From Branchiostoma floridae (lineage: Eukaryota; Chordata; Leptocardii; Amphioxiformes; Branchiostomatidae), in NCBI RefSeq assembly GCF_000003815.2, contig NC_049984.1, positions 12,023,186 through 12,087,185 of the forward strand: a DNA stretch of 64,000 nucleotides, written 5' to 3'. Shown piece by piece: positions 5,813 to 64,000 of this stretch (positions are counted from its first letter, which is position 1; each line of letters opens with the position of its first letter). Position numbers and translations under genes: made by a program. Below the pieces are notes generated by a model. That model had not been told where the DNA came from. It worked only from the letters and a program-made list of their open reading frames with translations, and did no database searches.

Positions 5813-7762
5813 AGGTCCCCGAACTCTAGTTCTTTATCTAATTAGAGTATTAGTAGACCAGTTATTGCATATCGCTGGTACATTTGATATACCACGAGAC
5901 AGCAATAAACTTCTTCTTTGCATACTCCTAGTATTATTGTGTCTTAACACGATGTATCCCTTGTTTAAAAAAATAGTAAACCCAGAAATAGGAGATGCTA
6001 GAAATGGAATATTCTCTATGTACTGTACTGTATATGACACGGCTACTTCCAGGGTAAAGACTCCAATATGGTATAATTGACGATTCTAGAAATACTAGAG
6101 ATCCTTTTCGGACACAGTAGATTTAAAGGAAGTTTCACTGTTCAAATCAATAGCTTGAGAAACGTTTAGAATATACCTTTCCATATCTGCTTGGAGATAA
6201 ATGCATGACCTCATCAGTGCCACGTAACGTTATATAGAACCTCAACGAAGGTGACATCATGCATCAATGATCAATAGGAAGAGGGATGCTTTGTCCACAT
6301 AGTAGCGTAATATGAAGACGCACAAACTCTGTCCTTATTTGGAAAACAGCGTCATTTGTAAGTCTCAATTACACCCTAAGCCACGAACACAAAGGGTGAA
6401 CTCTCACCTTTACCCCCGGAACTATTTCTTATAACGAAACAAGACATTCCGGCACGCCATGTAAAAGGTCCATCCGTATCTAGGCAAACGGGTACGTGAA
6501 CATAAATTTAGTAAGACTCTACTCGGAAATTACTTACCTACATGTTTATCTAACTGACAAGGTTTAACAGGACGTGTCAGGAGTGCCAAAGGAAGTCAAT
6601 ATACTACGTTTACCGTACAATCTATTTTTGTCGTGCCCCTCCCCAATCTTAACCGTCCAATGTGGGAACGTGGCAGTCTACCCTTCTAGCAGTTGTGTCT
6701 TTCTTACACGACTTGTAGTCTTGTATGTGAAACAACACGAGAGAAGCCATCAGGGCCAACTACCACCAGAGCAGAATAGTCGCCGTGTTATCAGATTTTG
6801 AGGCTGGTACAATCGGCCCGATAAACTCTTTGACCTCCTTGGGTAAATGTACCGCTATCAGTCCAAGAATGGCCAGCTGGCTGAGGCAATGGGTAACATG
6901 CCGTAAAAAATAAGGCAAAGAATGGGTTCTTACTGAAAGATACGCTTATCTTTATGATATAGTGAGTAAACGTTAGGTAAATAGTATGAGCTCAACACGA
7001 AACACTGCAAACAGTAATTGATGTCGACAGGTGCCGGGTAGCTATAAAGGCGTAACATTTCAAGCAAACAGGTATATATGCTGCTATGTGGAGCAAAGCC
7101 TTACCATAAATGATAAAAGACTAATACTAGACCATTAGCTGTTAGCTAGAGCCCCGTGTTAACCCAGAAGTCACTAAGCCTGCCTTCATGACCAGTATCT
7201 TGGTAAAGGTTGACGGTACAAAAGTGAAGAGTCGCAAGGTATTAAAATACAGCCGGTCGCCATGAATAGGTTGCACTTGTCTTCAGTCTGTAGCGTACCC
7301 TAATTTACGACAAATTCAAATGGAAACACAAAGAGACTCCCAATAACACTGTTTAGAATTAAAACGTCCGTACTTTTTATCACTCATCAGTAGGCCTATT
7401 TAACGGTATAGCAGCAGTTATCAGATTGTATCGTGTTTGATTGTTTGTTTAGGTGTGAGTCCGCAGTGACGTGAACATTGCCGAGTGGCAGCATGTAAGG
7501 CGGAAGTGGTGTAAGAAGATACTTCGAAAAGCGACCACTGAACTGCTGGACTACCCACCATGCGACTACAGGTGGATTCTCAGACTCTGAGTCAGAGTAC
7601 TAAGGAGCAGGACGGTTTACCTGCAGGACAGAGCGTTTTGCAGATGTTTTCAAAGACTCTCGGTGGAAGAGTGGGGGTAGGGGTGGAAGGAACTTGCCAA
7701 ACTGTACGAACGCTCCTAATGTAAATCGACCTTGCACTGTCTTGGGGGTCGTGTATATAACA

Positions 7763-10700
7763 ATGATGGAGACAGCACGAAGTTCTGTATCCCTCCGCGA
7801 TGAGGCAGTGACATCAGTGAATCTAGTGCCCCGCAGAAACTGCGATAACCAATGGGAGATAGACTTGTCTTGTCGAGGCCTCACGGAGATACCTCCCGGT
7901 GTCTTTCTCATCACCGACTTACAAGTTCTAAATCTCTTTGGAAATGACATCGCACATATATCTGGCGACATTGGACAGTTGCGAAGGCTTAAAAAGTTGG
8001 ATTTAGGTTCCAATCATCTAACCTCATTACCTCCCCAACTATGCAATTTGATCGAGCTAGAGGAGCTGAACTTGAATGACAACCAACTTACAACGTTGCC
8101 AAATAAATTCGGTCGCCTCAGGTCGTTGCAAGTTTTGTATCTCAAGGACAACGCGCTTAAAGATTTGCCACATTCCATTTGTGACATAGAAGAATTGGAG
8201 CGTCTCTACATTACAAACAACATGATTGAGTGTTTGCCTGATGACTTTGGAAATCTGAAAAGCCTTAGAGATTGCTACATAAGCTCGAATAGATTACGTT
8301 TTCTCCCTGACTCCTTTTGCGATATGGAAAATCTCCTGAAAGTGAATTTGTCCGACAACGCAATAGAGCAACTACCTGAGCGGATTGGAAATCTTGTGAA
8401 CGTTAAAAATCTTTATCTTCGTGGAAACAAGCTGGCACAGCTTCCAATGTCTTTCGGCAAGCTAGACTTGTTGGAATCGCTCACGCTTTCTGGAAATGGA
8501 CTGCAGGAGCTGCCAAGTACATTTGGAGAACTGGCCTCGTTGAAAGTGGTGTATTTGATGAATAATGCTATCCAATATCTCCCAGACAGCATCTGTGAAC
8601 TGAAAACTGTACGTCACCTAAACCTCTCCAACAACAAGCTGAAGATGCTACCAGAAAGTATAGGCAACATGTCGGCCTTAAAGATACTAGATCTGGACAA
8701 GAATCTTCTCATTGACTTCCCAATATCAATTCAGCATTTGGATAACCTGCGGCACCTCCGTGCATCTGGCAACAGGATAACCCAACTGTCGAGGCAAGTC
8801 GGATTACTAAGAAATCTCAGAGAAATCGATGTCTCACATAACCTACTTCAGGAGTTTCCAAAGGAACTGTGTAAACTACCAAATTTGCAATCCATGATCC
8901 TAGATGGGAACAGTGTTTCAACGATGCCTAATAGTGTTCAGAATCTGGCGAAGCTAACAGCTTTACATTTGAACAACTGTAGATTTGAGGAAATGCCCTC
9001 ACAGATAGCCCTACTGCCTTCCTTGCGACAATTAGAAATGTCAGGCAATATGATATGTACAATACCGGAGAGCATATTCTCATCGGATCGCTTGAGCATT
9101 CTCATATTAAATGGCAACAAGATCCGTACGATACCTGAACAAATGGGAAAACTTCAACTCGAAGTGCTTTCTCTCAGCGGCAACGGTATCATGTCTCTGC
9201 CCGATGATTTTGGACACTGTCAAACGCTGAGAGCTTTGAACCTCCTCGGAGCTGAGTTCGACATATTTCCTCCACAGCTGGAGAGACTTCGTAATCTGAA
9301 AACGTTACATATAACCTGTGAGAAGCTAGGGGGGCTACTGGACCAGCGCAGTGGTGCCAACGTGCTGGGTTTCATTAACGACGTGGAAGATACGGTTTTG
9401 GAAGTCAAAACAGTCAAGTCATTGTGGGCTCCCAAGAACGATCTAGAGAGATATCAGCGAAGAGTGAAGAAAGGCCATGATGGTAGACAGACACTCAACC
9501 TCTCCCAGCAAGGCATTCCGCAGGTCCCTACTGCAGTCTTGGACATCGAAAATGTCGAAGTACTCGATCTCACAGGTAATCAGATTAAGTCGTTACCGGC
9601 AGCTATCTCTCGTTTGAAACTCCTGAAGGTGTTGAGAGTCGACTACAACAAGCTTCAACTACTTGCAGATAACGTCTGTTGTTTGTACAAGCTGGAAGAA
9701 TTCTGCGCGGTAGGAAACAACCTCACCCGATTGCCACCTGGATTCGAATCCCTGCGACGCCTGAAGCGGTTGAGACTATCCCATAATAGTTTTGAAATCT
9801 TCCCTCCCAACGTTGAAAACTTGAAACGATTGGAATACCTTGACATTTCCGGTAACATGCTGCGAGCCTTACCGCAGAGGATAGACAGACTTGAAAGCCT
9901 GAGGGTCCTGAAGACATCGTCAAACAAACTTACAGTACTGCCAAGTGGCCTGTTCAAGATGACAAACCTTCGGGAGTTGGCCGTGGACGATAATTTGGTC
10001 AGGACAATCCCAGCTGAGATCTGTGGTCTTACGGGTCTTGGGAACTTTGGAAAGGAGCACATTGACAACAACCCTTTAGTCAGCCCACCAATAGACATGT
10101 TTGAACATGGACTGAGAGGACTTTGCAAGTATTTTGAAGACATGCATGTCTCGTCAGCAAGCGAGCTCCCGACAGGCAAGGTCGTGCTGCTAGGAGAGGT
10201 GTTTGCAGGGAAGACTAGCCTGGCAAATGCGCTGCAGTTGGGGCATTCTAAGCTAACCAAAGTGGAGGACAGAACGGAAGGTATCAATGTGAACAACACG
10301 CGGTTGGGCGCCCAGTTACTGGTAACCGTGTACGACTTTGGAGGACACGAGTCATACCGGTTAACCCACCAGTTTTTCCTGACGATGTACGCACTGTTTA
10401 TTGTCGTCGTGAACATGAGTACTTATGAAGACACCGCGGGCTCATTCGAGCAGGCCGTAGGGTGCTGGGTAGACTTCGTTCGCGCAAGAGTGAACAGGGC
10501 GGTAGTACACATAGTAGGCACCAAGGCCGACATTTGCACAGAGACAGACCTTCAAATAAAGAGTGATTCTATTCTGAGAAGATTAAAATCATTTGAAGTG
10601 TCCTACTCAAGGTGTATAAGGGAGCAAATTGTGACCATAGATGACGCAATGGAGAACTTCGGCATACTTCCTCCGACACATCCTTGCTATGGAATGGACA

Positions 10701-12702
10701 TGGAATCTCTTCAGCGGCGAAAAAGGGAACTCGAGAGGATGTTGGAAAATGCACCGATACTTCCGACGTTTGTAGACATCGTCAGTTCCAATGAGGACCT
10801 GCGTGGCATTGGTGAGCTCAAGAAGAATGTTGAAAGCATGATACTAAACGAAGAACTATTTCTCAGACCAAAGGTTCCACGTTCATGGTCTGCCTTACTC
10901 AATATGATCGCTGCCTCGGGGAATGCAACAACGCATGGGTTCTTGACATGGTCAGACATTGTTGCCGAGAGTGAAAGAGAAACAGGCCTTTCCGAAGATA
11001 GTACAGTGTTGGCATTGTCCCATCTACACAGCGTTGGCGTTGTTCTCCACTTTAGGGACAAACCAGGTCTGGCCAGGTTCGTGTTCCATGACCCAAACTG
11101 GCTGATACGTGTCTTCGCGATGGTCGCTAAGAACAAAAACCAAGACCGAAAACGGATGCTCATGTCAATGTCTCCTATGGAAGACGAACGGTTTCACACG
11201 ATGTCACCAACTTTGTTCAGAAACGCAGTCGACGACTTATTCGAGCGAGGCTCCATGTGGGATTGCCTTTTGAGGTGCTTTTGGCACGAACTGGACATGT
11301 CGGATGATGTCTTTCAGATGTTAGTCAGCCTGCTCGAAATGTTCGACCTTTGCTATCGGTTTTCGATGACGTCACCTGGTTCCCGTGGAGCCGTTAACTA
11401 CTTCCGTTTCCCATGGTTCCTAGAGAACAGCCCGACGCAAATGTACAGAAAATTGTGGGTAAACTCAGTCGTCAAAGACAGACAGGTAGAAGTTAGAGTC
11501 CGGTTTGAAATCATCAGCTATTGCCCGGTAGGTTTGTTTGAACGCTTGTCTGTACAGATCAATGACCTCGTGACCAGGGTTACGGAATGGAAGGACGGAA
11601 CTCTCGTGAGAACGCTGAACGATAGGCTATTGCTGCTGCAGCGCATGAAGGAACACCATGTGACTTATCTACTTTTGGCCACGCGTGTACCGGAGCGAGA
11701 GCTGGACCAAGGATGGACAGACCTCATGCCTATCGTGGCGAAAGCGGCTGGACTTCTCAAGGAATGGCCGGGTGTGTTGTCGTACATGTTCGTGGACTGT
11801 GGACATTGCTTCGGGAGGCTAGACAGTCGGGAGTGGTCAGATTTGTCCTCCAGGAAAGTCGGCCATTTTCCTGGAGAGGTGCTGTATACAGAACGTCCAG
11901 ATCACGTGACCTGCCCTTGCACCGGAGACGACATCAACCCAGCCTTGGTGTACCCCTTATCGCACCGGAAGTCGTCTGCCAGCCCAGGTGAGCTATTCTA
12001 GAGGAGAATTAAATAATGCAATGTACGACAAATTTATTTCCTAATGATTCTAAGAATACATACTGTCTAACTGCTGAACATGTCATGTAACCGACTGTCT
12101 TAGCATCTATTTGAATGCTAACTATGTTACATTTAACCTAAATTTAACGTTTAAAGTACAGGTACCTAGGTGAACATGCCATGTTCCTCATGCCTATCAT
12201 ATCGTATGTCAGCCTTTGGTACGCCTAGTCACGTTTGTCTTCTTTTCTGTAGACCTTCTCAGTGACGTCAGAATGTTACGTCTGGCAAAGCAGATCGGGA
12301 ATGAATGGAAGAGTCTTGCCATTGAGCTAGGATTCACCTTGGCAGAAATCCAGCGCTTACAAGTAAGAAGTTTATTCTGATATGAGTGTTAACCACATTT
12401 CAAAGACTAAAGTGTATATCAATATATAAAGCAATGTACAATGAAAAACCTGGAGCAAGTCGCTGAGTTCGCATAAAATGCAGCTCCGCAAAGAACAGTC
12501 TATACTCTATACCTGAGTACAATTTTTTAATCTTCTCTGTTGACAGAGTGATAACCCGTTCAGCACCGAGGACAGTATCTTCTCGATGCTGGTGCAGTGG
12601 AGACGCCGCCAGGGGGCGTCCGTACACATCAGCGCCTTGGCAGAAGCCCTGACCGCCTCTGGTAGGAAGGACTTGGCGGAGGGCATTTTGGAGGTCCAGT
12701 AA
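7763..12702 (+). CDS. LRR-Roc-COR-Death domain protein (ROCO family)
   Basis: Three coding exons are 7763-11987, 12253-12362 and 12547-12702, all in phase, giving 1496 aa. The start is ATG 7763 (MMETARSS); the open frame reaches further upstream but without an ATG. Residues about 30-520 are leucine-rich repeats, followed by a spacer (523-573) and a second repeat block (574-770). The Roc GTPase follows, with P-loop GEVFAGKTSL (about 816), DFGGHES (about 857) and TKAD (about 920). A COR region starts near 1030. Exons 2 and 3 encode a Death domain (GNEWKSLAIELGFTLAEIQR, then SIFSMLVQWRRRQG). Roc-COR proteins are GTP-controlled dimers, and Death domains recruit apoptotic or inflammatory adaptors, so a cytosolic immune or cell-death role is inferred. 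The whole LRR-Roc-COR part sits in one 4.2-kb exon. MFHAS1, LRRK and DAPK1 are relatives; exact orthology is unknown. Confidence 0.9.
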
Positions 12703-33375: not shown

Positions 33376-36300
33376 TTAGCTCTCTGCTTGATTCGACTTC
33401 GCTTTCTGTAAGACTTTTTTGGCGCCCTTGACGATCCTGCTGAACCACTGGATGTTGAGGACCTCCAGCACCACGCAGGCGACGATCCAGATGTACCTGT
33501 TGAGCGCGTGCAGCCGGTTGTACTGTTCCGTACCGTACACCTGATACACCATGTACCAGTACGGCGGGATCACCGCGATCCGGAACACGAACCAGGACAG
33601 GGCCAGAGCCAGGCCGTTCACAATGTACGGCTTGGAGGACTTACTGACACCCTTTGTCTCCAACAGCCACCTGGCGATAAAGAAAGGAAAGACAAGCAAG
33701 CGGCTTGAAAAGGCAGCGAAAATTTCTTTCAGGTAAATGATGACTTGTGATATTGTGATCAGAGAACAGGTTACTAGTACCTATGTATTTACTTTTCTTT
33801 TTGTTAGAAGAAAAGTTTCATCTGTATAGTTTAGGTATTGACTTGGGTCTTATTTGAACAAGAAGTATAACGTGTTTGAAACTTGTGAATTATTTGCTTC
33901 TGCCAGAAATGTATGTCTTGTATTTCATCTTAATTTTATTGGTATCGATCCTTCGCATAATTATGTTAAGCCTTTGCGTCGATGTAAGTTTTGCAAACGT
34001 GACTTCATCATTACCTCGTCATTTGCATTGTTTATGCTTTGATCAAAACAAAGGAAAGAAGCCTGCAGATTAATGGGTTGGCAACTCTGCTCAATCTAAG
34101 AACATTATACAGTCAAACCTGTCTATAGCGGCCACTCAAGGGACCGGACAAATTTGGCCACTATAGACAGGTGGCCTCTGTATAGAGGTGGCAACTTGTA
34201 GATAAAATACCCAAGGGACCGACAAAAAGTGGCCACTATGGACAGGTGGCCCCGTAGAGGTGGCCCCTAATACAGGTTTGACTGTACATACTTGGTGTTG
34301 ACGAACAGCGTCGAGTTCTCGCAGGTGAGGCGGAAGACGGCGAAGTAAGGTAAGTTACCGATTGTCTGTAACAAAACATACACGAGCACAAATCTTGGCG
34401 ATGTGAACATGACAATGTAGGATTAGTCATGTTCACATGCGTAATCCGGCAGTTACCTCTGACCAGGCGGTTATGGTTCGAATTCAAATCCTGGTTTCTG
34501 TCGCTCACCCGACATGCACGCTACTGGAAAGGGTCGCATTCCTTAGGATGGGACGTTGAAACGTGGTTCACGGTTCATTGTAATTGTCAGCATGCAAGAG
34601 TTAGACGAATTACCCTCAGTGCAACGAACCTGTAAATACTGTATACAACGTCTGTCTTCTTTCTCGCGGCCAGTAGAGCATTAATTAGCCGAGTTCTTGG
34701 TTTTAGTTCTTCAGTGAGCATAACTGGTTCGAGATCACTTTATTGTTCACTTAATTAAAAATGAAGTAAATCCAAATTAAGCCAAGATATCAGGACTTAC
34801 CAGACAAGACATGTACGCCACCAGTACCACCACATGATGTGCTATGTAGACGGTGTATTCCAGCCCACCCATGTACTTCCAGTAGGAGTAGTAGTACAGC
34901 ATGTTCAACATGTCTGCAGAATATCAATGTTTCAAAAGGATTATCCATGATGGGTGCGGATGGAGGGAAGGACTGTATTCGAAGCTAGTCATCGCTATGC
35001 TCTTAGACAATAAACTTTCCTTCCTGACCCTGTTGTAAATCTTCATGATTCCCATACTACAATGTGGAACATTTGGAACGTCCTTGCAAAGAATTACCAA
35101 TATCTCAATCATCGTCTATTTTTGTAGATATTTTTTTTCTATTTCACCGACTCTGTGTCAGCAGTGTCAATAACTGCCACTCAAATGAACTACATGTAAA
35201 TCATATGACTCTGACTGAACATCATTCGACAGATGTAGTCAGTCTTACAGCTTGTAAGAAGTATACCATAGATTCACCTGTCATAGTGAAGCCAACCATC
35301 ACAGCCAGCAGGTGGAGAGCTCCTCGAGAGTGACCCCTGGCGAACAACAACAAAATGCAGCACGTTATTACCACCGCAAGTAAGCTGAAGACTTTTAATC
35401 GGATTGTAATAATAAGTCTCTTTAATCAGTTCACTTGATTATTTCTTAATTGTGTTTGTTTTTACTTTATTCACTATTCACTACCTTTCTCTGTATGTAT
35501 GTATTTCTTTGAAACAATTAAAAAATAAACAAGTAGAAACAAAAACAAAACTTGGACAAGACGTCATAGGAAAGTGTCATTCCGTACATTAAGATATTTT
35601 TTGTGGAGCTTCTCCGACAAAGGGAACCACAAATAGGACAATTCTCTACAGATGATAGTAAAGGGACAGGGGCTTATGCTTTTTCAAGGACCTTGTGTGC
35701 ATAGCAGAAACTTCAGGTGAGAAAATACCATTTTTCGCACGGTCTAACTTACCATATTGGGTTCTCGCCGAGTTCATAGTCACTGATGATAAGGTAGACG
35801 GAAAGGGGTCCAGTGATCAGTGAGTTCAGCATTGAACTTGTCCTATAAAACAAGAGTGTATGCAGCAGTGACAGTGTTGATTACAATGAAATACGCCCTA
35901 TTACATTGAATCCCTGTAGCATGACAAAACGTTTACAGCGAGGTGTTTTCACAACAACGTTGCAAAGGGAATATGGCTGTCGTCTGTGACCGCATTTAGC
36001 GCGATAGGACTGAAGCACTGGCACCTGGCTGCAGTGCATAATACTCGTAACGTTAGAACCGGTCAGCATTACACCGAGGAAGGTGACAGACGGCCACCTT
36101 AACATCTCGAATTAAACAATTGCGAATTGGATGCGTACAAAGGAGTTGTTATCAACCTGATGAACCTATTCACGGAGTTGTGGATGCCATTGCAATGACT
36201 TAATGAATTAATCGATAGCTGTCGCTTTATCAATATTAGGCAGACTAACCTGATGTTCCAGTCAAGCCTCTGTCCAGGCGTCAGCTGTCTGTAGGTTTTG

Positions 36301-38851: not shown

Positions 38852-40047
38852 CACATGAGAAAATTGCAAGTGAGTTAAACAAGGAATCCGATTGAAATTT
38901 TCTATCGGATTAAAAAAAAAGTGTTCACATATATAAGTTTTATACAATCGGATGAAACTCATCAAACTTGCGACCGCGACCACACAATCGGATTAAACTC
39001 TTATAGCGGGCACGCGTGGTGTTTCCAACGACCACCGCGGGCACGCGTAGTGTTTCCAAAATGTTGCCAGACTAACTCATAATTTTGAAGGATGTAGCGA
39101 CATCGATATTGATTATAACTGTTGAGAAATCGGCCGGTTTTGGTCAGATTTTGACGCGTCGATGGTCCGCAACACACACTGAAGAAAGTGGCGGCTTCTA
39201 GGTCATACGGGGTCATTGGGATAGTCTATAAAACTGGGGGTGGAAATGTTGCGCGCGGTGTGATTATACTCTACACTTAACTATATAAAATGTATCTGTT
39301 GGAGAAGTTGCATGAATAGAAAAAACTTATACTTAAACATTTGACTTCATTACGTATTTATCTGAAATAAAAGTCTGTGTTTCGCTTAAAAAACTGCTCG
39401 CCCATGCTTGCGTGCAGTGAAGTGACCCAAGCTCGAAAATTCTGTATAGACACGCTTACGGCTGTTTTTCTTGTGGAATATTTGCCTTTTTAGTGTTCTT
39501 GGGACATTGCCTCCAACAACAGAAGAGAAACAAAACCACATATGTTATTTTCATGGGCTATATTGCCAAAATGAAAAAGTCGGTCTTCTGCCGCACTGCC
39601 GATTTTCGGAAAGAACCGGTGTTCCGGCGAATCATGGCTTGCGGCGTACGGTTGTGGTTAACCATAGCGGTAAGGTGATTTTTGCAAGCAAACTTGCCCA
39701 TAAACTTCTTTTCTTATCCGTGTATCATACTTTTTTGCCATGTTGTAGTTATGGTTGTATGTCTAAGGTCCACTGTACCCGGATGTATGAAGTCAAAACC
39801 ATGAAACAAGCCCGAATCCAATCCAATTGTGTTCACATGGGCGATTCTAATCGGATTGCGCGCCAATCGGATTGCGCGCGCCGAATCCACCTTCCGAAGT
39901 GGATTGCAATCCAATCCAAAATGGGTAATCCAAGGAGGTTATTTAACCTCCTTGGGTAATCCAATCGGATCAGTTCTGTTCACATGGCTTAGATTGGGTC
40001 ATTTTAATCGGATTCCTCGTTTAACTCACTTGCTTTTTTCCCATGTG
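38852..40047. mobile_element. Non-autonomous DNA element, about 1.2 kb, with about 43-bp inverted ends
   Basis: Starting at 38852, TCACATGAGAAAATTGCAAG and then TGAGTTAAACAAGGAATCCG is mirrored near 40005-40047 with only a few mismatches. The interior is rich in AATCGGAT and has no transposase-like frame. The ends resemble hAT-type MITEs, but the superfamily is not established. Confidence 0.7.
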
Positions 40048-43646: not shown

Positions 43647-46600
43647 AAAGCCGACGCCGCAGCTCAAGTAGGCTGAGCGTCTTCACTGGGTCATCACTGA
43701 GTCTGACCGGTAAAGGAACTATTTCTTCTTGTTTTATTTTTCTTTCCTCCTCTTTTCTTTCTCTCTCTCTCTCTTCATCTCTCTCTGCCTCACTCTCTGT
43801 CGACACGATGTTGATACTTCCAAATCGCCAACAATAAAACAAGACACGTGGGAAGGGTATCAGCACCATGGACATGTTTTAGCGGCCTATTCGCGGAGTT
43901 AGTCGTGGCGACGTCTCCTCTCAAGGGGAAGCAGAAGCAGAAAAAGGGCCAGAATAGTGAATAAACAGTTAACAACATATCTCCAGATAAGGGAGGACAA
44001 ACGTTTAGATTTTACCCAAACCCTGGATCTCCCCTGAATATTCAAAGTTATCATATTTATCTTTCCCCGTAGGGAAAAATATGGAGTGTTCTTTTTCTTT
44101 CTTCTTTTCCTTTCTCAGTCAATAGCTAATCAGAGGCTGGATTGGATATTACTTGTCATTGGAAATAGAGTTTTGTACTCACACACAACACTATAGGGCG
44201 AGTCTAATGCTAATCAGAGGCTGGATTGGATATTACTTGTCATTGGAAATAGAGTTTTGTACTCACACACAACACTATAGGGCGAGTCTAATGGTATAGT
44301 ATTCTGTGCGAGTAGCTTGACCAAGGGCTACGGGGAAAATATTCTGCATTTCGCAAAAATGTTGCCTTTCAAGTATCTTTATTCACTTTTCTGTGCTGCA
44401 GCCACGTTCACTAGAGATGTGTTTGTGGCGTGTGCCGACAAGGACGAGGCGCTGGTGAAATCTCGCGTGATCCAGCCTCTCGAGAGTAGGGAGATCACGT
44501 GCTGCTACCCACAGCGAGACTTCATCCCCGGACACAGCGAGTACCAGAGTGTGGTGGAGGCCATGGAGACAAGCCGGAGGACCATCGTTGTGCTTTCCAA
44601 GAATTTCAAGGACTACAAACTGTTCCATGCAATTCTTGGTCTGAGTAACCAACTGATCGCCCAAGGCCGTGTCATTCCAGTAAAAATTGATGAGGTGAGC
44701 CTGATTTTACAATACATTTCATAGCAGAAACAACATTATATGAAATGTTTTGTCCACTAAGACGATGTAGTGGTGCCGTATTGTAATAATGATAAACATT
44801 GTCAAATTAAGAATAGATATTATCTTAGAATGTTTGCACTATGAATGTAAATTGTTGTTTGTTGTCACAAATACAAATCAGTCCCCGAGCCAATATCATC
44901 TAAATTTTATCTACAAGCTTATACATTTAGCGTTGGTACTGACTCAGCGTTTTGTGAGTTACACGAGCGTGGTGGGTTGTTAAACGTGCTCAATGTGTGG
45001 CTCTCCTCAAACACGGGGCATCTGGTTTTACGTCTCATCCGAGAGGACATCTCTAGATCTCTACCCTTAAGCTTGGTACCCATTATATTGAGAAAATAGG
45101 TGTAACGTGCATTTTGGAAGGGTATAGGATTTCGGGCCTGTTTGGGATTTAAACCCAGAAACTAAAAGTTTCTAAGTTAACAACCCTAACAACAAGACCA
45201 CCTGCAGCCTGTTGAAATAAGACAGGTAGAAATGTTTTTGGTTTCACTGGATACCATTTCTATCTGCTGACTAAAGATTTCTGTATACTTTAGGATACGG
45301 ACCTGGATGGTCGTTTCAGAGATGTTGTTATCTTGGACATGATGGCGATCGACGAGACAACATTCATCACTAGGCTCGAAAAGGCCGTAAATTTGGAAGC
45401 AAAATCGCCAGGTGACTCATCACATTCTTAATACAAGCGGAACACTTCGACACTGGCCAAAATATATTCTGCCATATATACAACTTGCTTTTTTTTCAAA
45501 CGGTTCAGCTTTTGTTTGAGTCCGAATCAAATGCTGTGAGTGTGTACGTTGAATCTAAGAACTGACGTTACATGCACGCTTGATATTCGTTCTGAAGGAA
45601 TGTAATATATCTATTCACAATACGAAAAGGCTTGCTATGAAAGCCTATGATGTACTTCTGCAATGCCATGGAGCTTTTGTTCTGATACTGTACTATTTGA
45701 TAAGACTTGAATGACTATATGAATCATCTTGAAACCACAGGAATCCGTGAAGACGCTGCTGTATCATCAGAACCATACCCAGCAGACAGCACACCAGCGT
45801 CGTCAGAAACAAGCAGCGACATCAGCACTGCCAACACTGACTTCCAACAAGGTAAACTCATACTTATCATCTGCCATGTTGTATTTTAATGTTATACAAG
45901 ATGACAGATGATGTTACCATGACATCATGATTTCCATAGTGGACATCCTCCTTATCTGGACGAAAATGACATCCTGCCTCTTTTTCTTCTAGTATGGGAT
46001 GAACATGACTTTCGCCACAGCACTGAAATCATAAACGCCGAAGATGCAGTCACTGAATTTAACGACCTGGACAGCAATGATCCGTACTATAAGCACGAGG
46101 AAGGACACCACCTAAAAGCTGTGACAAAGACGATAAGCCTACACAAACTAGCACACTTCAGCCGCTCCAAGAGCCAGGTAGTGGCAGACAAGGCACTGGA
46201 GAAACTCCAGGACCTTGTGAGCTCGCGCATGGGGCACTGTGACCCTGACACGTACCTCGAAGAGCTTCAGAAAGCCGAGGTTATCATCAGAGAGACAATC
46301 AACAAGAAGGGGCAGCCGGTCATCATCAAGCGTAGAATGCTGAGGCTGAAGACATACGCCCTGATAGTGTACCAACTGGGCATCCTGTTGGACAAGGGCG
46401 ACATCGATCTGGAAAACAAGTTCTTCACAGCCATAAGCGACTTCAGCAAGAACGACTTCAAGACGTACGCGAACAAAGGACTCATTGCAGGCTATACTGT
46501 ACAATTTGCCCAAAGCGCTGCAAAATACACCCAGGATATCTCCAAACGCAAAGGAAGCAGCTTCACGTACGTAGAGAAGCTGATACAGCGGGTGGAGGAT

Positions 46601-49600
46601 CAGATAGAAGGAACCTACAAGGAGCTCCTGAAGTCTCTCTGCGACATAACGACAGACAAGAAGAAGCACTTCTCGACAGAGATATTCCTGCATGTCCTGA
46701 AGAAGAAGGTAAGACAAGTTACGAAGAAACAGCAATATGTGATGTCCATAATTTCATTATTTGTAAGAAGGAATCTTCAACAAAGGAGGCTAGCCAATCA
46801 TTAAGTTGATATAATTAATACTAACTAGTAATGTTTAGTACTAAATTAACTAAGTAGTTCAATAGAATGGATATGCATATTACTTCTGTTGATTCTTTTT
46901 TTTAAATGTCTTTTTTAAAGGTTATGCGAGTGAAAGATGCCAGCACAATCTTCCTAGACGTGCTGCAGAAGGTACTTGACGCCATCTTGAAGAACAAGAA
47001 CAAGAAGATTGATAAGGTGTGCCGGAGTGGTCTGCTCCTAGTGGGAACCCAGATCTTGGTCTACATCGCCTCTAACCATACCAACCCAGGTAAGATAATA
47101 GTGTAGTAGCAGCCTAAGCTATGCTTGGAGAGAAGCCAATTGTCTACACCTTGTACAGCGCAGGCTAACATTAGGCAAACGACAGCTAATTTAATATTAA
47201 TTGCACCACACTATCTTCAAGATGATCTGTGATTCTCCAATACATAAAAATACTGCTACGAAACCCAAAATATCCCTGTTTGCACGGAGCCTCAATAAGT
47301 ACTTGCATACCAAACTTCAAACACATTCACGAAAAGGATATCAAAATATAGCTGTAAACACACAAACACCGGGATCGACCAAAAACTATTAGTGATCTCT
47401 TACACGGGGGTAATAATGACTAATCATTTCCCTCCTCAGGCATCCGTGTACAGGCTGTCAAAGGCAGCTACACGAACGACATGGCCGGCCTGTGCCAGCT
47501 ATGGGACTACGAAGACAAGAAATGGAAGGAGGTGGCATCAGAAGTGTTTGACCTCTGCACGCCTCTGTGCTTCAGATCGAAAGATGAGGCCGTCGTACGG
47601 GCGGTTGCAGACCGATTTCTCACTGAGACGTCTACCAGTCGTGAGCAAAGCATGGCAGAGATCCCGTACCAGAACGACCCTCAGCTCGACCAGACCAAAA
47701 TGCTGCCAGTGACAATAAGAAGCATCAAGTATCGTCTGCATGAAGAAGGCCAGATTCTGACCGTCCCAGACACACAGACATCGAGTGAAGCCGCTTTCTC
47801 AATCAACGGTCGGATGTCTGACACGGACGTCGTGATCAAGTTTACAAGGTACAGCACCCGGGAAGACTTGGTGAGTAAGGAGTTGTCCTCAGACGACCTA
47901 CGGAATGAGATCCGCGTCGTGAGGAGAATGAACCATCCAAATGTGATCAACGTCTTGGCAGCGCACGATGGCCCCTCGCCGCCCTACTATCTGATAACAC
48001 CTCGGATGGAGGAAGAGACTCTCATAGATTACGTTATCGGCTTGCGGAAAGCTGTTCCTACTGACGTAGTTGTTACGTTGGTCGACGCCTGCAGACAAAT
48101 TACGGAGGCCGTGATCTACCTGTCTACCAAGGCTAAAGTAGTGCATCGCGACATCATGGCGGCCAACTGCCTGTGCCGTACCCTCCCTAACGGCAGGATG
48201 CACTGTTGTCTGACGAACTTTGGACTGTCTCGAACCATGAAGAAATGTGGGAGTGAGGAGAGGCAAGCGACGAAGTACGTGTGTCCAGGGAACCCCAAGG
48301 ATCCCATAGCGTACCGCTGGTCAGCGCCGGAGTCTCTGTCTCAGGACATCTTCACAAGTGCCTCCGAGGTGTGGATGCTGGCCTGCCTCATCTACGAGGT
48401 CCTGACACTTGGGGTACATCCGTTCCCACAGTGTGAGGATCCCAGGAAAATGGAAGACTATGTGAGTAGAAAAAATTGATCTGTAATCTTGCTTGATACG
48501 AAAATTGAACAACTGCGTTACAGTACTATTTAAATCTGAGCATGTGTGCCACAACGTTGTCATGCCTTTCATGATGTACTATCTTGCTATCCTTCGCTGT
48601 ATTTTTCCAACATTGCAGCTAAATGATGGGAAGCGGACTGAACAGCCGTCTTGCCTTTCCAAGCTGGATGAGAAAAGCCGCCTGTACCAGTTCCTATGGA
48701 TGTGTTGGAGCGCAGAACCTGCAGACAGACCGTCCCCTGAGGCTGTGCGAGAGTTCTTGGAGAAAACAACAAAGAGACACTCCAAAGGTAAGAGTTATAT
48801 ATCATGTGCCTTCTGGATAGTGAACGCCTTTTCATGTCTTTTTCATTGGCTGTATTTTTCCAACTTTAACCCTAACAGTACAGATCTAGAACGACGCAGG
48901 AAGAAGTCTTTAACACTTTTGCTTGTTCTCTAACACAGGAGATTTCTCCCACGTGTTCGTGTCTCCTCCAACCCTAAGGGGTGAAAGTATCGTGCGGCGG
49001 GTGAGTAGATTAACATATCTGTCGCTGTTGTCATAGAAGATTTACTTCTAAGTGAAGACTTTCACAGAACTTTGAAAACCTGAATTCTTGAATCCGTTAA
49101 CGCCGTACGCTCGACGCCGAACGTTTCCGTAGATTTTATGTATTGACAACAGAACATGTTCAGGTGATTGGTTAAACACTGTAAAGATGAATTTGATTTG
49201 GCACAGTATATGTCTTATTATCAGGCCATTGTATTTCTGTCATATATCATGCATATGATACAATTCATAGAAATGCGTGAGTCTCTAATGTAATTTCAAT
49301 TACTAGTACTTTGACAGAGTTCAATTTCTTTTTCTCTGTCTATCAGTCCATCACCAGCCAAGCATTCCAAGCGGGCGAGGAAAGTCCATTCTGCAGCAAC
49401 CAAATCGCTGATGATGCACTCAGTATCAGCCAACCACTGTACTATGATCCCGTGGCTCCCGACTTTCCTAAAGGAAGTCCTATTCGTGACGCGGACGAAT
49501 ACGATGACACAATACAGCAGGTATATAAAAACATTATCTATAAAAACATTCAGTATATCCTTCTGCGACAAATTGCGTATGAGGTAATGTCTATCCCCAT

Positions 49601-50931
49601 TCAGATGTTCTGATATGTTAACACTGTTTCCATATCTTCCATTGGTTCCAGCCTCGAGTCCAAAGGACAGACCAAGCCGGTCCACCTGCCATGAACCAGC
49701 CGCTGTACGACCGTCCCCGGCCCCGAGCCCGTAGCTTCCCTGTGAGGACCCCGGCCCAACCCTTGCGGTCGGGAATTGCCACTGGCGATGCGGACGATTA
49801 TGATGACACAATCCAACAGGTAATGTTTGCTATCTTGCTGTATGACAAAAGCTGGTATCTCGACGGACTACGCAAAATTGCTGTGCCATTTCCCCTTGCG
49901 TGGTCTCACTGACAGGCGACGCACTTGCGTATATGAATACCATATGAACCACATTCTCAGTTTCGATACAAGATATTGAAAATCAGTGTACAACTATCAA
50001 AAATTCTTCAAAAACCCCTTGGCTAAGATGATGCTCACCGTTTTGCACCCATTTGCGCCATTTTGCCCTATGGCAAGGCGAGTTTTTTTAAAGATTGAAA
50101 ACAATTCAATTCGAAATTTTAGCAAAAAAAGTTGTGCCACGGGCGCACTTTCATTTTAATGAAGTCCAGTGATCCTTGTATCCATGAAACCACATCTGAC
50201 AAGGACGGAAGGTGGATTATTGTAGATTTATCACTTGATGAATATAGATTTTGCTTTGTTAGCATATACGCCCCAAATGAAGATTCCCCTGAGTTGGATG
50301 ATTTTTCTCAGACCAATGAGCATTTGATCATTACTGGTGATTTCGATACTGTACAAACCCTTTAGTCGATCGGTCGTCCACATATTCCACCTACCATCCA
50401 AAAGTATTTGAATCTATTTCTAAACTAAGATGTAAGTTTGACCTACGAGGTATTTAGTGAAGTATGAAGTATGTAGCAGATGTTGTCAATGATCAACAGA
50501 AGTCAACAGAAGCACGATTATAAAGTATTCATAATATCCATTGATCAGTCTCTGTAAAATGTTCATTGTGAATAGTCGTTGCCATAACTACATACCAGCA
50601 TCTTGTATTGTACAATCATGAGAAGTAATAACTGTACCTATCGTGACAGTAATCATCTATCCCTTCACCATAGACATGCGGCTATCAGGAGCTAAATATG
50701 ACTTCACCATACCAGACCCTGGAGACGCCTGGGGCAGAGTCAGGACAAGATAGGACAACTGCGTCTGCCGTGCATCTCCGCCAGGGGGCCCGGCCCAGGC
50801 CCTATCGCGCCAGGGCTCCTTCGGAGGAAGGGGAATCTCTACCACGTGGTCGGCTGCATACTGAGCCCACACGGCCTAATCCAAGAGTCCCCGACCCCAG
50901 AATGATTCAGTCAGAGATATTCTATATCTAA
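43647..50931 (+). CDS. TIR - helical region - tyrosine-kinase-like fusion protein (5' end unresolved)
   Basis: Exons 43647-43709, 44402-44694, 45294-45411, 45741-45851, 45993-46708, 46921-47089, 47440-48461, 48619-48787, 48939-49000, 49347-49520, 49652-49819 and 50674-50931 all have GT-AG borders and join in phase to at least 1106 aa. Residues about 21-155 are a TIR domain (DVFVACADKDEA; CCYPQRDFIPG; ETSRRTIVVLSKNF). Residues 195-570 are alpha-helical without a recognised family. A kinase domain follows (about 576-880): VVIKF lysine, HRDIMAANCL, NFGLSR in place of DFG, RWSAPESL, SEVWMLACLIYEVLTLG and CWSAEPADRPS, all tyrosine-kinase-like. The tail has paired exons ending in YDDTIQQ and a final exon with YQELNMTSPYQTL. 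A cytosolic immune-signalling role is inferred. The start codon is not found: the first exon is entered after one base of a codon. An in-frame ATG at 44359, just before the TIR exon, is an alternative start. AATAAA is at 50940. Confidence 0.85.
44125..44292. repeat. Perfect 84-bp tandem duplication
   Basis: Two apparently identical units start at GCTAATCAGAGGCTGGATTG (44125 and 44209) and lie in the intron about 110 bp before the TIR exon. Each unit contains CACTATAGGGCGA, which by chance resembles part of a phage-promoter/vector sequence. The identity means the event is recent or technical. Confidence 0.9.
45000..45215 (-). repeat. tRNA-like SINE fragment
   Basis: On the minus strand, GGTTGTTAACTTAGAAAC and TCTGGGTTTAAATCCC match the block at 14.3 kb. 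The remainder contains GTCCTCTCGGATGAGAC, a body often seen in such SINEs. It lies in the intron after the TIR exon. Confidence 0.4.
47440..48787 (+). other. Tyrosine-kinase-like domain exons with altered catalytic motifs
   Basis: Exons 47440-48461 and 48619-48787 encode the kinase lobes. Present: the VAIK-type lysine (VVIK, about residue 622), the C-helix Glu (LRNEIRVV), the catalytic HRD Asp (about 726) and the following Asn. Altered: no Gly-rich loop is visible in SSEAAFSINGRMSD, DFG is NFG (about 749), and the SDVW aspartate of the F helix is Glu. Loss of the metal-binding Asp normally abolishes or severely lowers catalysis, so a pseudokinase or weak kinase is inferred. Confidence 0.8.
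49347..49819 (+). other. Duplicated tail exons, each ending YDDTIQQ
   Basis: Exons 49347-49520 (174 nt) and 49652-49819 (168 nt) are both phase 0-0. Each contains QPLY and ends with DADEYDDTIQQ or DADDYDDTIQQ. They look like a tandem exon duplication in a disordered, Pro-rich, tyrosine-containing tail. Either can be skipped without a frameshift. Confidence 0.8.
50118..50440 (+). pseudogene. LINE endonuclease fragment (non-LTR retrotransposon relic)
   Basis: The frame reads KDGRWIIVDLSLDEYRFCFV, SIYAPNED and LIITGDFDT, which are the APE-type endonuclease landmarks (NIYAPN, GDFN). It stops soon after GDF. It is a short, dead, sense-oriented fragment in the last TIR-kinase intron and belongs to no host gene. 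Confidence 0.8.
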
Positions 50932-51039
50932 TGATTTGTAATAAAAAACTAGAAAGGCCGACATTTGCTTGAGAGCAAATACAGCATATTTCAGCCATCT
51001 CCCTCCCCATGCAACAATAGGCTATTTCAAAATCACCCA

Positions 51040-59300: not shown

Positions 59301-62300
59301 TTAATTGATTAATTATTTAATTCTTAATTAATTAATTAATTTCGTCTCTTACCAGGGCGGAACCCTAATAAAAAAGGTAGAATCCACAGGTCTTTGCTGA
59401 AGTTAACATACAAAGTGTTTAAATTACTGTACCAACCTTTGCCAATCTGTACAAAGCCACAGATAATGATGAGGATGAGAGCTAACACTTTCGCCACCGT
59501 GAAGATGTCCTGTACACGTGTGGCGGCTCGGACACTGGCACAGTTGATGAATGTCAACGTCACTGCAGAACAAACGTATTTCCCAAATAAAATTAACTAT
59601 ATTACATCATCTATGCTCTTGGATAGTGAAAATTGTAGGTAGATATTCTTAGACTCTATCAGGCTCCGCAGATCGCTGGTAGAATAGTAGAAATTGGACA
59701 AATACAGTCAATAGTACTGGTCGACTCCCGTAGCGTACTATTGACTCTATTTGTCTAATGTCTACTATATTTGACCAGTGATCCGCGAAGCCTGGGAGAG
59801 GCTAGGATATCCTGGGTAATACAACAATGACAAAGTTAAAGGCAGTGATGGACCCTCACGTGCCGGCACTACTGCAGTTCTCACAGTCACCAACAGGGGT
59901 CGCGATGGAGAGTCTGTTAGCACCAAGGCCAGGGCGAGGTAAGTTCGTCAAATAAACCATATGGGAGGGCTTTTATAAAGAGTATTACAAAGTCTGAACG
60001 TATGCTATCAAGTCATCTAAACTCTCACGAACTGATACAGAATACCAAATCTCTTAGATATAAGCATGTATTGGATATGCGGGCACATTGGTTAAAAACA
60101 TTATCCATTTTAACTTCAAAATTCATCAATTAGTCAAGAAAAAACTATCTCGTGAAAAATTCACATATATAATAATCGTCCCAGTGATACTAAAAATGCT
60201 AATTTCAGGCAAGCTTAAAAGGATTTCTATGTAGTAATGTGATATCCTTCCCCTGAGGATATTTAATTGAGATACGTGTGATTGATAATCTGTATATGCA
60301 GATGAGACGCAGCTGTATGATAACTGACGTATACGTGTATTGGCTTTATAATAACACTCGGCAATGTAACCGAAAATCCACAATCCATTAACCATTAAAA
60401 GGTCTTTTCCCTTCTGCTAGTATAAACCCGTGTGTTCCAGTATCTAATCTGACCATATGCTGGCAGTACGTCACACAGGATGTGTGGTAAGGAGGGTGGT
60501 ATGAGCCTGGATATTAGACTGTTTCCAGCTCCTCGTCTCAAGGTCCAACATGCCGCAATATATGTCTTACCACAGTCTAGGGCGTTGACCTGTGTGGGCC
60601 CGAGACAAGGGAGTGGTCATGGCCGGGTAAATATCTCCGACTGATACCGGATTTGGGGATTCCCTCCAGCGGTGCAGAATAAAAAACAAACACCGAGGAC
60701 TGGGATTTATAAACTAGTGGGCGGAGCGAGAAAAACAGGTTCAACAGCTTATTTCTTTTCATTACTTGTAGATTTCCAACTCTTATGAGTCTTATGTTTC
60801 GTTCCTTGCTAGTGGGAAAGATCAGAAAGTTAACAGCAAGGTTTTATTCTAGGACCTATGATCTACCAACCTGATGAAATGATTTTCGAAAGGTTTCATT
60901 CTGACTTCGATTTCTATATGGCGGGTCGAGTATACTGTAATTATCACATACGCATACCAGACTGGGTAGTGTCAAAAGGTCATGAATATGTACATCATGT
61001 TTGTCTAAAATCCATACACTACATCTCAGCGGATTAATCTTAACACTTTCCTTTGCTTTCTGACAATATTTCTTCACTGGTTCTACACTTATCATTTTGC
61101 CCAGTTACTAATGTTAAATATAGTATTATGATATGTTATCAAATTCAGAAATAGGTTTCAGGTAACTACGCGGTTATCATGCAATCCATAGACAATCTAA
61201 ACTAACGAAAGGTCCCAGTGTTATATAGTGGTCTCACGCAGTGCGTAACAGTGCTCAATTAAAGGACTAACCGAGCTCGTGACTGTCACGAGGTGCATGG
61301 GTGCATGAACATACACTATAGGGCTGCGGGACATGCACTTAGGGGGGTGGAGTGCATTGAAGAGCAGTCTATTGATAACAGTAACGCTAATTTACCGAAA
61401 CAAAATGTGTCTTTTTCGTTAGAGAAAAATATGAAAGACTGTGCACGGAGACTAGCCTAATTAAATCTCACTCATATCAGCCCGCCCAGGACAGCAGAGT
61501 TTGTGTCACACAGACTACAAGGAGACTAAACATTATGAACTACCGAAGTCGCAACAACGTCACATGCCGAATACAACACTATACACAGAACGGTCACGGC
61601 CATGTCACATGGTTTCAGAGGACGTCTCTTCACCTCTCCCCTTCAGCCATAAATCCTAAGTGCTACGTTGCCAAAAAAAGTAGGCCAGTTGCTGCGTGGT
61701 ATCGCAAAATCACAGCATGTGATTTTTATTTAAAACAGAGTATGTTACTACGTGTTGTGTGAAACATGCGAGAGCACGGGTTACGTTAGAAAACGCGGTG
61801 CGTCAAGGCCGACGGTCACAGAAAGTCTGCACACTTACCGAGACATAGAACAGCCAGAAGCCGGATGGCAGAGTCGGGCGCATCGCACGTCGGGAAGAAC
61901 GGTTTGACGATGTAGTTGGCGAAGGTGAGCGCCACGATAGATTGTGTGGTGGGCCTGATGATGAGCAGGTTGATCCACAGGCACAGGAAGGCCAGCAGTT
62001 TACCGAAGTGTCGCCAGAACTTCTGCATGCCCGCTGACGAGCACCGCCCGGCGCAGCCCTCGAAGGCGTCCCCGAACGCCTCCAGGACATAGATGTAGTC
62101 TCCTCCCGACTTGGGGATGCTGGTGCCGAGTTCCGCGAAGCACAGCGCGCCGATGACGGTGACCACCCCGCAGATGGCCCACACGATCACCGACAGGCCC
62201 ACCGACCCGCAGTTCGCGATCACGCCGACCGGCGACACGAAGATCCCCGAGCCGATGATGGTGCCGACGATGATGGCGACCCCGTTCATCAGGGTCACCC

Positions 62301-62415
62301 TCTTTTTCATCTTCACCGACTCTTCCCCGTCTCCGTCCCCGACGTCCATTTTCTCCAGTGACGGCGTCTTCTCAGTTGCCCCGTTGCCGTGGATGTCCGG
62401 TGCCATGTTGGTCAT
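56355..62415 (-). CDS. LAT-type amino-acid transporter light chain (SLC7 family)
   Basis: Ten coding exons on the minus strand: 62415-61839, 59562-59437, 59186-59081, 58948-58904, 58749-58626, 58405-58302, 58120-58024, 57848-57699, 57274-57097 and 56416-56355, in phase, 522 aa. It is a 12-TM plasma-membrane exchanger that normally pairs with an SLC3 heavy chain. The TM1 substrate motif GSGIFVSP is at 55-62, PKSGGDY at 101-107 and the disulphide Cys in FFPTC at 177. Others are [64 protein letters not shown] and [10 protein letters not shown]. The protein ends [20 protein letters not shown]. The start is ATG 62415 (a second ATG follows at 62406). About 23 residues (around 116-138) are inserted where human LATs are short. 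SLC7A5/7/8/10 are candidate relatives; orthology is not resolved. Confidence 0.93.
59650..59810. mobile_element. Foldback MITE in the first SLC7 intron
   Basis: CAGGCTCCGCAGATCGCTGG with AATAGTAGA...GACAAATA is mirrored by TATTTGTC...TCTACTATA and CCAGTGATCCGCGAAGCCTG, around a CAATAGTA / TACTATTG core. It is non-coding. Confidence 0.65.
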
Positions 62416-64000
62416 GCGACTGTCCTGGCTGGTGCGTTTGTCTAACTGTGGGTCCTGACGGAGAGATGTCCAACCACAACCGGCGAACAACTTACGGCGG
62501 CGGGGACACACCAGGGGGGTGCTTGTGGGAGGAGCCTACGGTACCACCTGTACGAATGAGAAAAGACAAGTGGTCAGACTAGTCTAGTGGCGACAGAGAC
62601 ACCTTAGTATTTACAACATAATGTTTTCCCCCCACGCCGAGGCAAACTGTCTATCGATTACATTTGCATACATCTGATATATACGCAAATTACCTGCTTT
62701 ACTTAAAGTAAAATTGTATCCACATAAGAAAACAATAGCCTAGACTAGAGTAACCAATCGAAGAAATCTGTCACAAGTGCCTTGGTGCCGCTCTGTGTGA
62801 GGTTTATGAATATGTAGAAGCGTCATATCGCGGGGATCGCACGTGACCCACATACCCAGTTCTACAGAATGTAAACACTGGAACTCGTGACGGAGAGCAG
62901 ACAAAGATAAAATAGAAGCGCAAATAACGATCTGTTTGCCCAGGGTCGGGACTCCTTCACACTGATCTGACCCCAGGGCTTCGTCTGAAGATCCCGTGAT
63001 CTGTCGCGTTGTCTGTGGCGATATTTCTGCGTAAAGATGCCCAAAACACGGTGCCATATGTTTTGAAATACAAGATAAGGCCTCGGGAGGAAATGAGGGC
63101 TTTACTAATGTAAATAAAACATTCCCCTCCTGCTAATGTATGTATCTACAAAATTATATCATCGAGGCAGTAAATTCGTTTTTGATTATGGTCATTTTTC
63201 AGACCATTAGGTCCCTTATAAACAAATGAGGCGGAAAGACTCATGCACAGCACTATCATATCGTCAGGAACTACGAAACTGAAAGCAAAGTTTTCATACA
63301 AACGGTACCAACATTTAATACAGCAAAATAATGTGTGCTACTACTTCACAGTGAACGTGAGGCAAAAGGGGCTGCATACACAAAGGCGACTCGCTTCCAC
63401 TTCATACAGAATGTCACAAAAGGACCAAGGCAAAGAGTCCCTTTGCACGCCACTACTGTACATCAGAGGAGAGGTGTCATCGTATACAGTAACACCTCTC
63501 TTCCGTAGTAGTAGATACTGCGACCGCGCTGTGGCCGCTGTCTGGGCGGTCAAAGATTTGACAGTCGACCAATTTGAAATATCTGTCAAAGAAATAGTCT
63601 GTGTAACGCAAACTCCGCATATAGCCTCCTCCCCGCGGCAATGTAGGACGGGCCTAAGAAACGCGATTAAATCAGGCTATCAAAGAAATAGTTTCTGGAC
63701 GTTTATAATGTTTTGTTGACGGCAGGCGTCAAACCTCGGGACGTTTAAGAACCCAACACACTTATCGAGGAAAGTAGGGGTTAACCGGTGTGCTTGGCAA
63801 ACCTTATATTAGGATTAGGAACGTTAGTACTTACAGGCTCCCGTCACATGACGAGAAATCATTTCCCACAGACCTCAGTGGTTCACCCGCCATCAATCTA
63901 AATCAGACGGATGCATAACTTCCCATCCCAATCACTCTTCCTGTCAAAAGTACTTTTATTCTTAACCCAAATATTTCTCGTTACAAAAGTCAAACATCCA
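62416..64000. other. 5' flank of the SLC7 gene and right edge
   Basis: The GC-rich leader reaches to about 62540 and then becomes AT-rich. A 158-codon ATG ORF at 63243-63719 (+) shows no domain, no signal peptide and no exon borders; it is not called as a gene. Confidence 0.4.

Follow-up and report, generated by a model that had tools for sequence, protein, structure and literature searches.

The lancelet Branchiostoma floridae carries a twelve-exon gene that likely encodes a scaffold protein, probably cytosolic, in which a TIR domain is followed by a helical region, a tyrosine pseudokinase and a tyrosine-rich tail, and which likely belongs to a small family. The gene lies in a stretch of 64,000 nucleotides, called the window below, that corresponds to C6:12023186-12087185 in a 513-Mb genome of 431 contigs. 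Its exons lie on the forward strand between 43647 and 50931 and splice in frame to a stop-free sequence of 1106 residues, with GT-AG boundaries and consistent phases at all junctions. The predicted product reads along this single strand as TIR domain, helical region, tyrosine-kinase-like domain and tail. Profile searches with Pfam matched both TIR and PK_Tyr_Ser-Thr, and at the level of sequence they confirm that an exon chain encoding the two domains is real.

The first-pass annotation of this DNA had predicted one gene joining a TIR domain to a tyrosine-kinase fold, a prediction that is now supported chiefly by a second locus of the same order. At C12:16000682-16011330, on the + strand, 11 exons yield 934 residues that match TIR_2 (E = 1.3e-7) and PK_Tyr_Ser-Thr (5.9e-49), and, as in the window gene, a TIR and a linker come first, then a large and a second helical exon, then the kinase and the tail. 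One intron is particular to the window gene and three to C12; window exons 2 and 3 (411 bp together), for instance, correspond to a single C12 exon of 414 bp. With these introns allowed for, the lengths of the eight corresponding blocks in the window and C12 are 411/414, 111/126, 716/746, 169/187, 1022/998, 169/163, 62/77 and 174/93, similar in seven of the eight and not close in the last. In C12 the position of exon 4 is taken by a 126-bp exon, also of phase 1-1, that shows no sequence similarity to it, and the phases of exon 6 recur there and, by eye, in a third gene on C4. The start phase is identical in all eight corresponding exons, a match that was partly guided, because the window model informed the choice of C12 splice sites; no such guidance entered the open TIR, helical and kinase frames. 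The C12 locus points to a genuine gene family rather than to a false merger of two genes.

The gene on C4 (7.717 Mb) was found with the helical region of C12, which matches C4:7717350 (E = 1.3e-14) and C4:7718740 (6.7e-6). Its 755-bp helical exon (phase 1 in, 0 out) is followed by a kinase; the exons after the helical exon have the same phases and, by eye, a phase-2 intron is common to C4 and C12. When 26 kinase rows of the genome were placed in a tree, the window, C12 and C4 kinases formed one clade (97/95) within the tyrosine-kinase-like rows, evidence for their kinship that is good but not final. A shared exon layout and a single kinase clade, by which we would recognize a family, were both found, the helical part being linked through a profile only. 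Among 147 TIR and 139 kinase places listed at kilobase resolution, the window and C12 hold the only TIR-kinase pairs within 10 kb; their own kinase places were added separately to the list of 139, and the lists draw on the 134 of 1264 kinase candidates and the 150 of 179 TIR_2 candidates that were scored. A kinase search in eight stretches downstream of TIRs, about 1.5 to 6.5 kb off eight TIR places, was positive in one, at C12. Downstream of the C4 pseudokinase, C4:7722653-7723905 holds a second kinase-like stretch with VHRDLRLEH and with AYS at the DFG position, perhaps the second of two pseudokinase domains in one gene or perhaps part of a neighbouring gene. Contigs C1, C4, C5, C7, C8 and C12 contain many tyrosine-kinase-like matches within open frames of at least 900 codons, often clustered.

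The TIR domain of the window protein matches TIR_2 (4.7e-10, residues 27-135) and TIR (8.3e-8), and both profiles pass their curated cut-offs (40.5 bits against 28 and 32.7 against 21.3). In the PDB it matches TLR6, TIR-STING, TLR2 and TLR1. When aligned to TLR6, the window RDFIPG falls over RNFVPG, so that the proline and glycine of the BB-loop are kept, and LFHAIL falls over WCHYEL, where the alignment ends and its confidence is low. In NADase TIRs of the SARM1-like kind the WC is followed by a catalytic glutamate; the window TIR does not show this arrangement, and by eye C12 has Gln at the position. Because box 1 and the BB-loop are kept while LFHAIL replaces WCHYEL, the domain looks like an interaction TIR and not a NADase. 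Adaptors of the MyD88/TIRAP type also have a TIR with a BB-loop, and an adaptor role is likely for the window protein as well. In contrast to those adaptors, it has no death domain matched in Pfam and it carries a kinase fold and a tyrosine tail.

The kinase domain matches PK_Tyr_Ser-Thr at 2.7e-37 over residues 613-876, beginning at profile position 24, past the Gly-rich loop. It falls within the tyrosine-kinase group by two measures: the 60 best of its 1143 PDB hits are all tyrosine kinases, and in the tree, whose rows were sorted by motif rather than by name, it stands among the tyrosine-kinase-like rows and apart from five others. Its catalytic motifs are degraded, as are those of its relatives. 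The DFG position reads NFG in the window, GFE in C12 and GFC in C4, and the HRD position reads HRD, HRN and HRM, the last spanning an exon junction that we placed. By eye none of the three has a Gly-rich loop, and all three keep the Lys. Of the features expected of an active tyrosine kinase, the window domain thus has the Lys and the HRD Asp and is without the Gly-rich loop and the DFG Asp; judged by these motifs it is probably catalytically dead. Since the DFG Asp is lost in all three proteins and the HRD Asp in two, we favor a scaffold role. IRAK-M, MLKL and HER3 are pseudokinase scaffolds of immune or receptor signalling in which a kinase fold persists without the full catalytic set, and the window protein resembles them in its degraded kinase fold. 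In contrast to the window protein, none of them is known to carry a TIR domain, and MLKL and IRAK-M lie outside the tyrosine-kinase group.

The tail comprises 220 residues with nine tyrosines, including those of YYDP, YDRP, two DADxYDDTIQQ motifs, YQEL and YQTL. YxxP is a Crk-type SH2 site, and YxxL resembles the immunoreceptor tyrosine-based activation and inhibition motifs (ITAM and ITIM); the distance between YQEL and YQTL is five residues, one less than the ITAM spacing. The final 48 bp of exon 10 (49473-49520) and of exon 11 (49772-49819) match with a local score of 52, where the best of 1000 shuffles reached 35, and this shared module probably arose by partial exon duplication. On the Kyte-Doolittle scale, no 19-residue stretch of the window protein has a mean above 1.56. 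We propose that the TIR domain would join TIR assemblies below Toll-type receptors, while the helical region and dead kinase fold would form a module for oligomerisation or conformational change. In the tail, the tyrosines of two YxxP sites, of the duplicated DADxYDDTIQQ and of YQEL/YQTL would be phosphorylated by another tyrosine kinase and would then dock SH2 proteins. The protein would most likely be a cytosolic adaptor that carries tyrosine docking sites to TIR assemblies.

The exons differ in how well they are supported. Splice sites were scored with a generic matrix and ranked against all AGs or GTs of the window; 11 of 12 acceptors are in the top 6% (exon 4, at 14.3%, is the exception) and all 11 donors are in the top 4.7%. 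By a codon-use score trained on 15 open frames from elsewhere in the same genome, the frame of the model outscores the other five in 10 of 12 exons but not in exons 1 and 12. When compared with stop-free background of the same length, the scores of exons 1-4, 6 and 8-11 are reached by 6-30% of stretches, that of exon 12 by 88%, which is background level, and that of exon 5 by all 28 stretches obtainable; for exon 7 the background supplied no stretch for comparison. Open length is more telling and supports the exons strongly, codon use being otherwise weak support. Among up to 400,000 random stretches, 28 stay open as long as exon 5 (238 codons) and none as long as exon 7 (340 codons). The first and last exons are provisional.

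Several results weigh against the reading of the window protein as a scaffold from a family, most of them in the helical region. The term helical comes from the first-pass annotation and the helical nature of the region is putative; against the PDB the region gives nothing (best E 0.34), and in Pfam only sub-threshold matches. Compared directly with its C12 counterpart, the helical region of the window gene shows no significant similarity, at best 20.4 bits by BLAST (shuffles reach 28.1) and 17.05 by pairwise hhalign (shuffles reach 20.07). Global alignments by exon give a modest result, with 24 of 2000 shuffles scoring higher for exon 5, 130 for exon 6, 176 for the part before the kinase and 1115 for the linker. 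With a profile built from C12 and C4, window exon 5 scores 22.3, whereas the best of 200 shuffles reaches 20.9; the match is in register at a motif resembling LRLxTY. The same profile gives an hhalign probability of only 2.65% and an hmmsearch E of 4.8e-4 in a one-protein search. The profile signal argues modestly for homology of the helical region. The window kinase also sits on a long branch (2.87), and in C4 no TIR turned up, neither within 6.3 kb upstream nor among the genome-wide matches listed for C4:7.39-8.14 Mb; the TIR is therefore not a constant part of the family. Three further points of this kind, the catalytic residues that the window kinase retains, the incomplete 5' end and the weak acceptor of exon 4, each bear on a different explanation of the locus.

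The first of these explanations is that an active TIR-linked tyrosine kinase signals alone. The first-pass annotation had seen adaptor and kinase in one molecule; the kinase half of that idea is probably wrong, and we regard such activity as unlikely. The window copy does retain the VVIK Lys, the alpha-C Glu (by alignment to ABL) and HRDIMAAN with its HRD Asp and Asn, its profile match is strong, and CASK is active without a normal DFG. Against this stand NFG in place of DFG, a Gly-rich loop that is not seen, and the loss of the HRD Asp as well in two relatives.

Slightly less likely still is that the full gene encodes a receptor to which upstream exons add an extracellular or leucine-rich repeat (LRR) part. 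None of seven candidate first exons upstream is convincing, a start codon was not found, and exon 1 is entered in phase 1. The 5' end is incomplete, and a signal peptide, membrane span or further domain may precede what is modelled here. An 'LRR-TIR-Kinase' has been named in lancelets (PMC11747288). However, 60 open frames of at least 40 residues on the + strand between 34 and 43.9 kb include no LRR frame by eye, and the one of these 60 that was run against Pfam, at 39450-39956, has no match. The window does contain an LRR frame, a single open frame of 1465 codons at 7604-12001 (+) with many LRRs and Roc and COR-A domains, which is presumably MFHAS1-like; it is separate and ends 31 kb upstream.

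The remaining explanation is two adjoining genes, one with the TIR alone and one with the kinase from exon 4 onward. The phase agreement of all junctions had been put forward against such a merger. The junctions do agree, but the argument is weak because only the junctions of exon 4 bear on a merger, the chance is about 1/3 at each, and the exons were chosen to agree. Better evidence comes from C12, with its same order of parts. There the frame preceding the TIR exon has no ATG and the exon must therefore join something upstream. From 44000 to 50900 the + strand is free of AATAAA and ATTAAA, where 7.7 would be expected at the density of the whole window, AT-rich non-coding DNA included; upstream of the TIR exon, the intron after exon 1 holds two such hexamers, at 43833 and 43960. 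Although a TIR-only gene could begin at the in-frame ATG at 44359, inside the intron preceding exon 2, and run to a stop at 45431 with the exon 3 donor unused (the frame of exon 3 is open only to 45428), and although an upstream ATG at 45719 lies in the frame of exon 4, whose acceptor is the weakest, we consider two genes very improbable given the absence of poly(A) hexamers from the interval separating TIR and kinase, the strong exon 3 donor (top 0.9%), and the repetition of order and phases at the independent C12 locus.

The features of the gene, which we continue to read as a single scaffold gene, are listed in Table 1. The intron preceding the TIR exon contains about two tandem copies of an 84-bp unit, 97% alike (44117-44293), and the last intron contains an open frame (50123-50365, +) that by eye resembles part of a LINE (long interspersed nuclear element) endonuclease and has no Pfam match. 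Neighbouring genes on the - strand encode a TLC-domain protein (33376-33780) and, by eye, an amino-acid transporter (61816-62535). NCBIfam matches to bacterial kinase and TIR families were rejected, the best reaching 55.7 bits against a cut-off of 460, and Rfam gave no match on the window at gathering scores.

Table 1. Exons and transcript-end signal of the window gene (window coordinates; ranks are by splice score within the window)
Feature	Position	Strand	Description
Exon 1	43647..43709	+	Ser/Arg-rich, without start codon, provisional; acceptor top 1.5%, donor top 3.4%; codon use no better than background
Exon 2	44402..44694	+	TIR domain with box 1 and BB-loop RDFIPG; Pfam TIR_2/TIR
Exon 3	45294..45411	+	TIR domain end; TIR_2 match reaches residue 135
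Exon 4	45741..45851	+	Ser/Thr-rich linker; weakest acceptor; symmetric phase 1-1
Exon 5	45993..46708	+	Helical region (putative); 238 open codons
Exon 6	46921..47089	+	Helical region continued; phase 0 in, 1 out
Exon 7	47440..48461	+	Helical region end, then kinase N-lobe and most of C-lobe
Exon 8	48619..48787	+	Kinase C-lobe end; Pfam match to residue 876
Exon 9	48939..49000	+	Tail start
Exon 10	49347..49520	+	Tail: PLYYDP and DADEYDDTIQQ
Exon 11	49652..49819	+	Tail: PLYDRP and DADDYDDTIQQ
Exon 12	50674..50931	+	YQEL/YQTL, stop TAA; provisional; acceptor top 6.0%
AATAAA polyadenylation signal	50940..50945	+	Nine bases past stop

Proteins that combine a TIR with a kinase have been described before. 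Choanoflagellates have Kinase TLRs and Kinase TIRs, which were called unique to choanoflagellates, and the Kinase TIRs were proposed to bypass kinase recruitment (PMC6040629). Like the window protein as modelled, Kinase TIRs unite a TIR and a protein kinase without a membrane span; unlike it, they are written in the order Pkinase, TIR, and the available passages of that paper do not mention a helical region or pseudokinase (PMC6040629). In lancelets, a discussion sentence counts LRR-TIR-Kinase among the homologues of RIPK2 (PMC11747288). That protein comes from the same animal group and has its TIR before the kinase, as in the window protein; by its description it has LRRs and is called a RIPK2 homologue (PMC11747288). 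The window protein is tyrosine-kinase-like, with no LRR seen by eye upstream. Amphioxus has 28 TIR combinations, 20 of them amphioxus-specific, and the three uses of 'kinase' in the main text of that paper concern matters other than TIR-kinase proteins (PMC2575513). The main text of a paper on the holozoan tyrosine kinome does not contain 'TIR' (PMC8662651), and the available passages of two further papers name no TIR-kinase protein (PMC12373286, PMC10199209). The literature searched, mostly as titles, abstract openings or passages, named no animal TIR-pseudokinase protein. The statement that no established vertebrate family has this order stands in that none was named there, but TIR with kinase is already in print for choanoflagellates and lancelets. 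What looks new is not the general idea of TIR plus kinase; it is the tyrosine-kinase-group pseudokinase, the helical region and the family.

Animal TIR signalling normally recruits separate adaptors and Ser/Thr kinases. It is possible, although we hold this only tentatively, that the lancelet genes represent an unnamed chordate family whose members combine a TIR adaptor with a new helical domain and a dead tyrosine kinase in one scaffold and link Toll-type TIR assemblies directly to phosphotyrosine/SH2 signalling. The locus is of more interest as a family, and of less as an enzyme, than the first-pass annotation held. If this proposal is true, other animals would make the link from TIR to phosphotyrosine/SH2 signalling with separate molecules, and the lancelet protein would naturally connect Toll-type with tyrosine-kinase signalling. 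A further consequence would be a TIR-kinase fusion in a chordate, perhaps of independent origin, in which the kinase part may have been kept as a scaffold after catalysis was lost.

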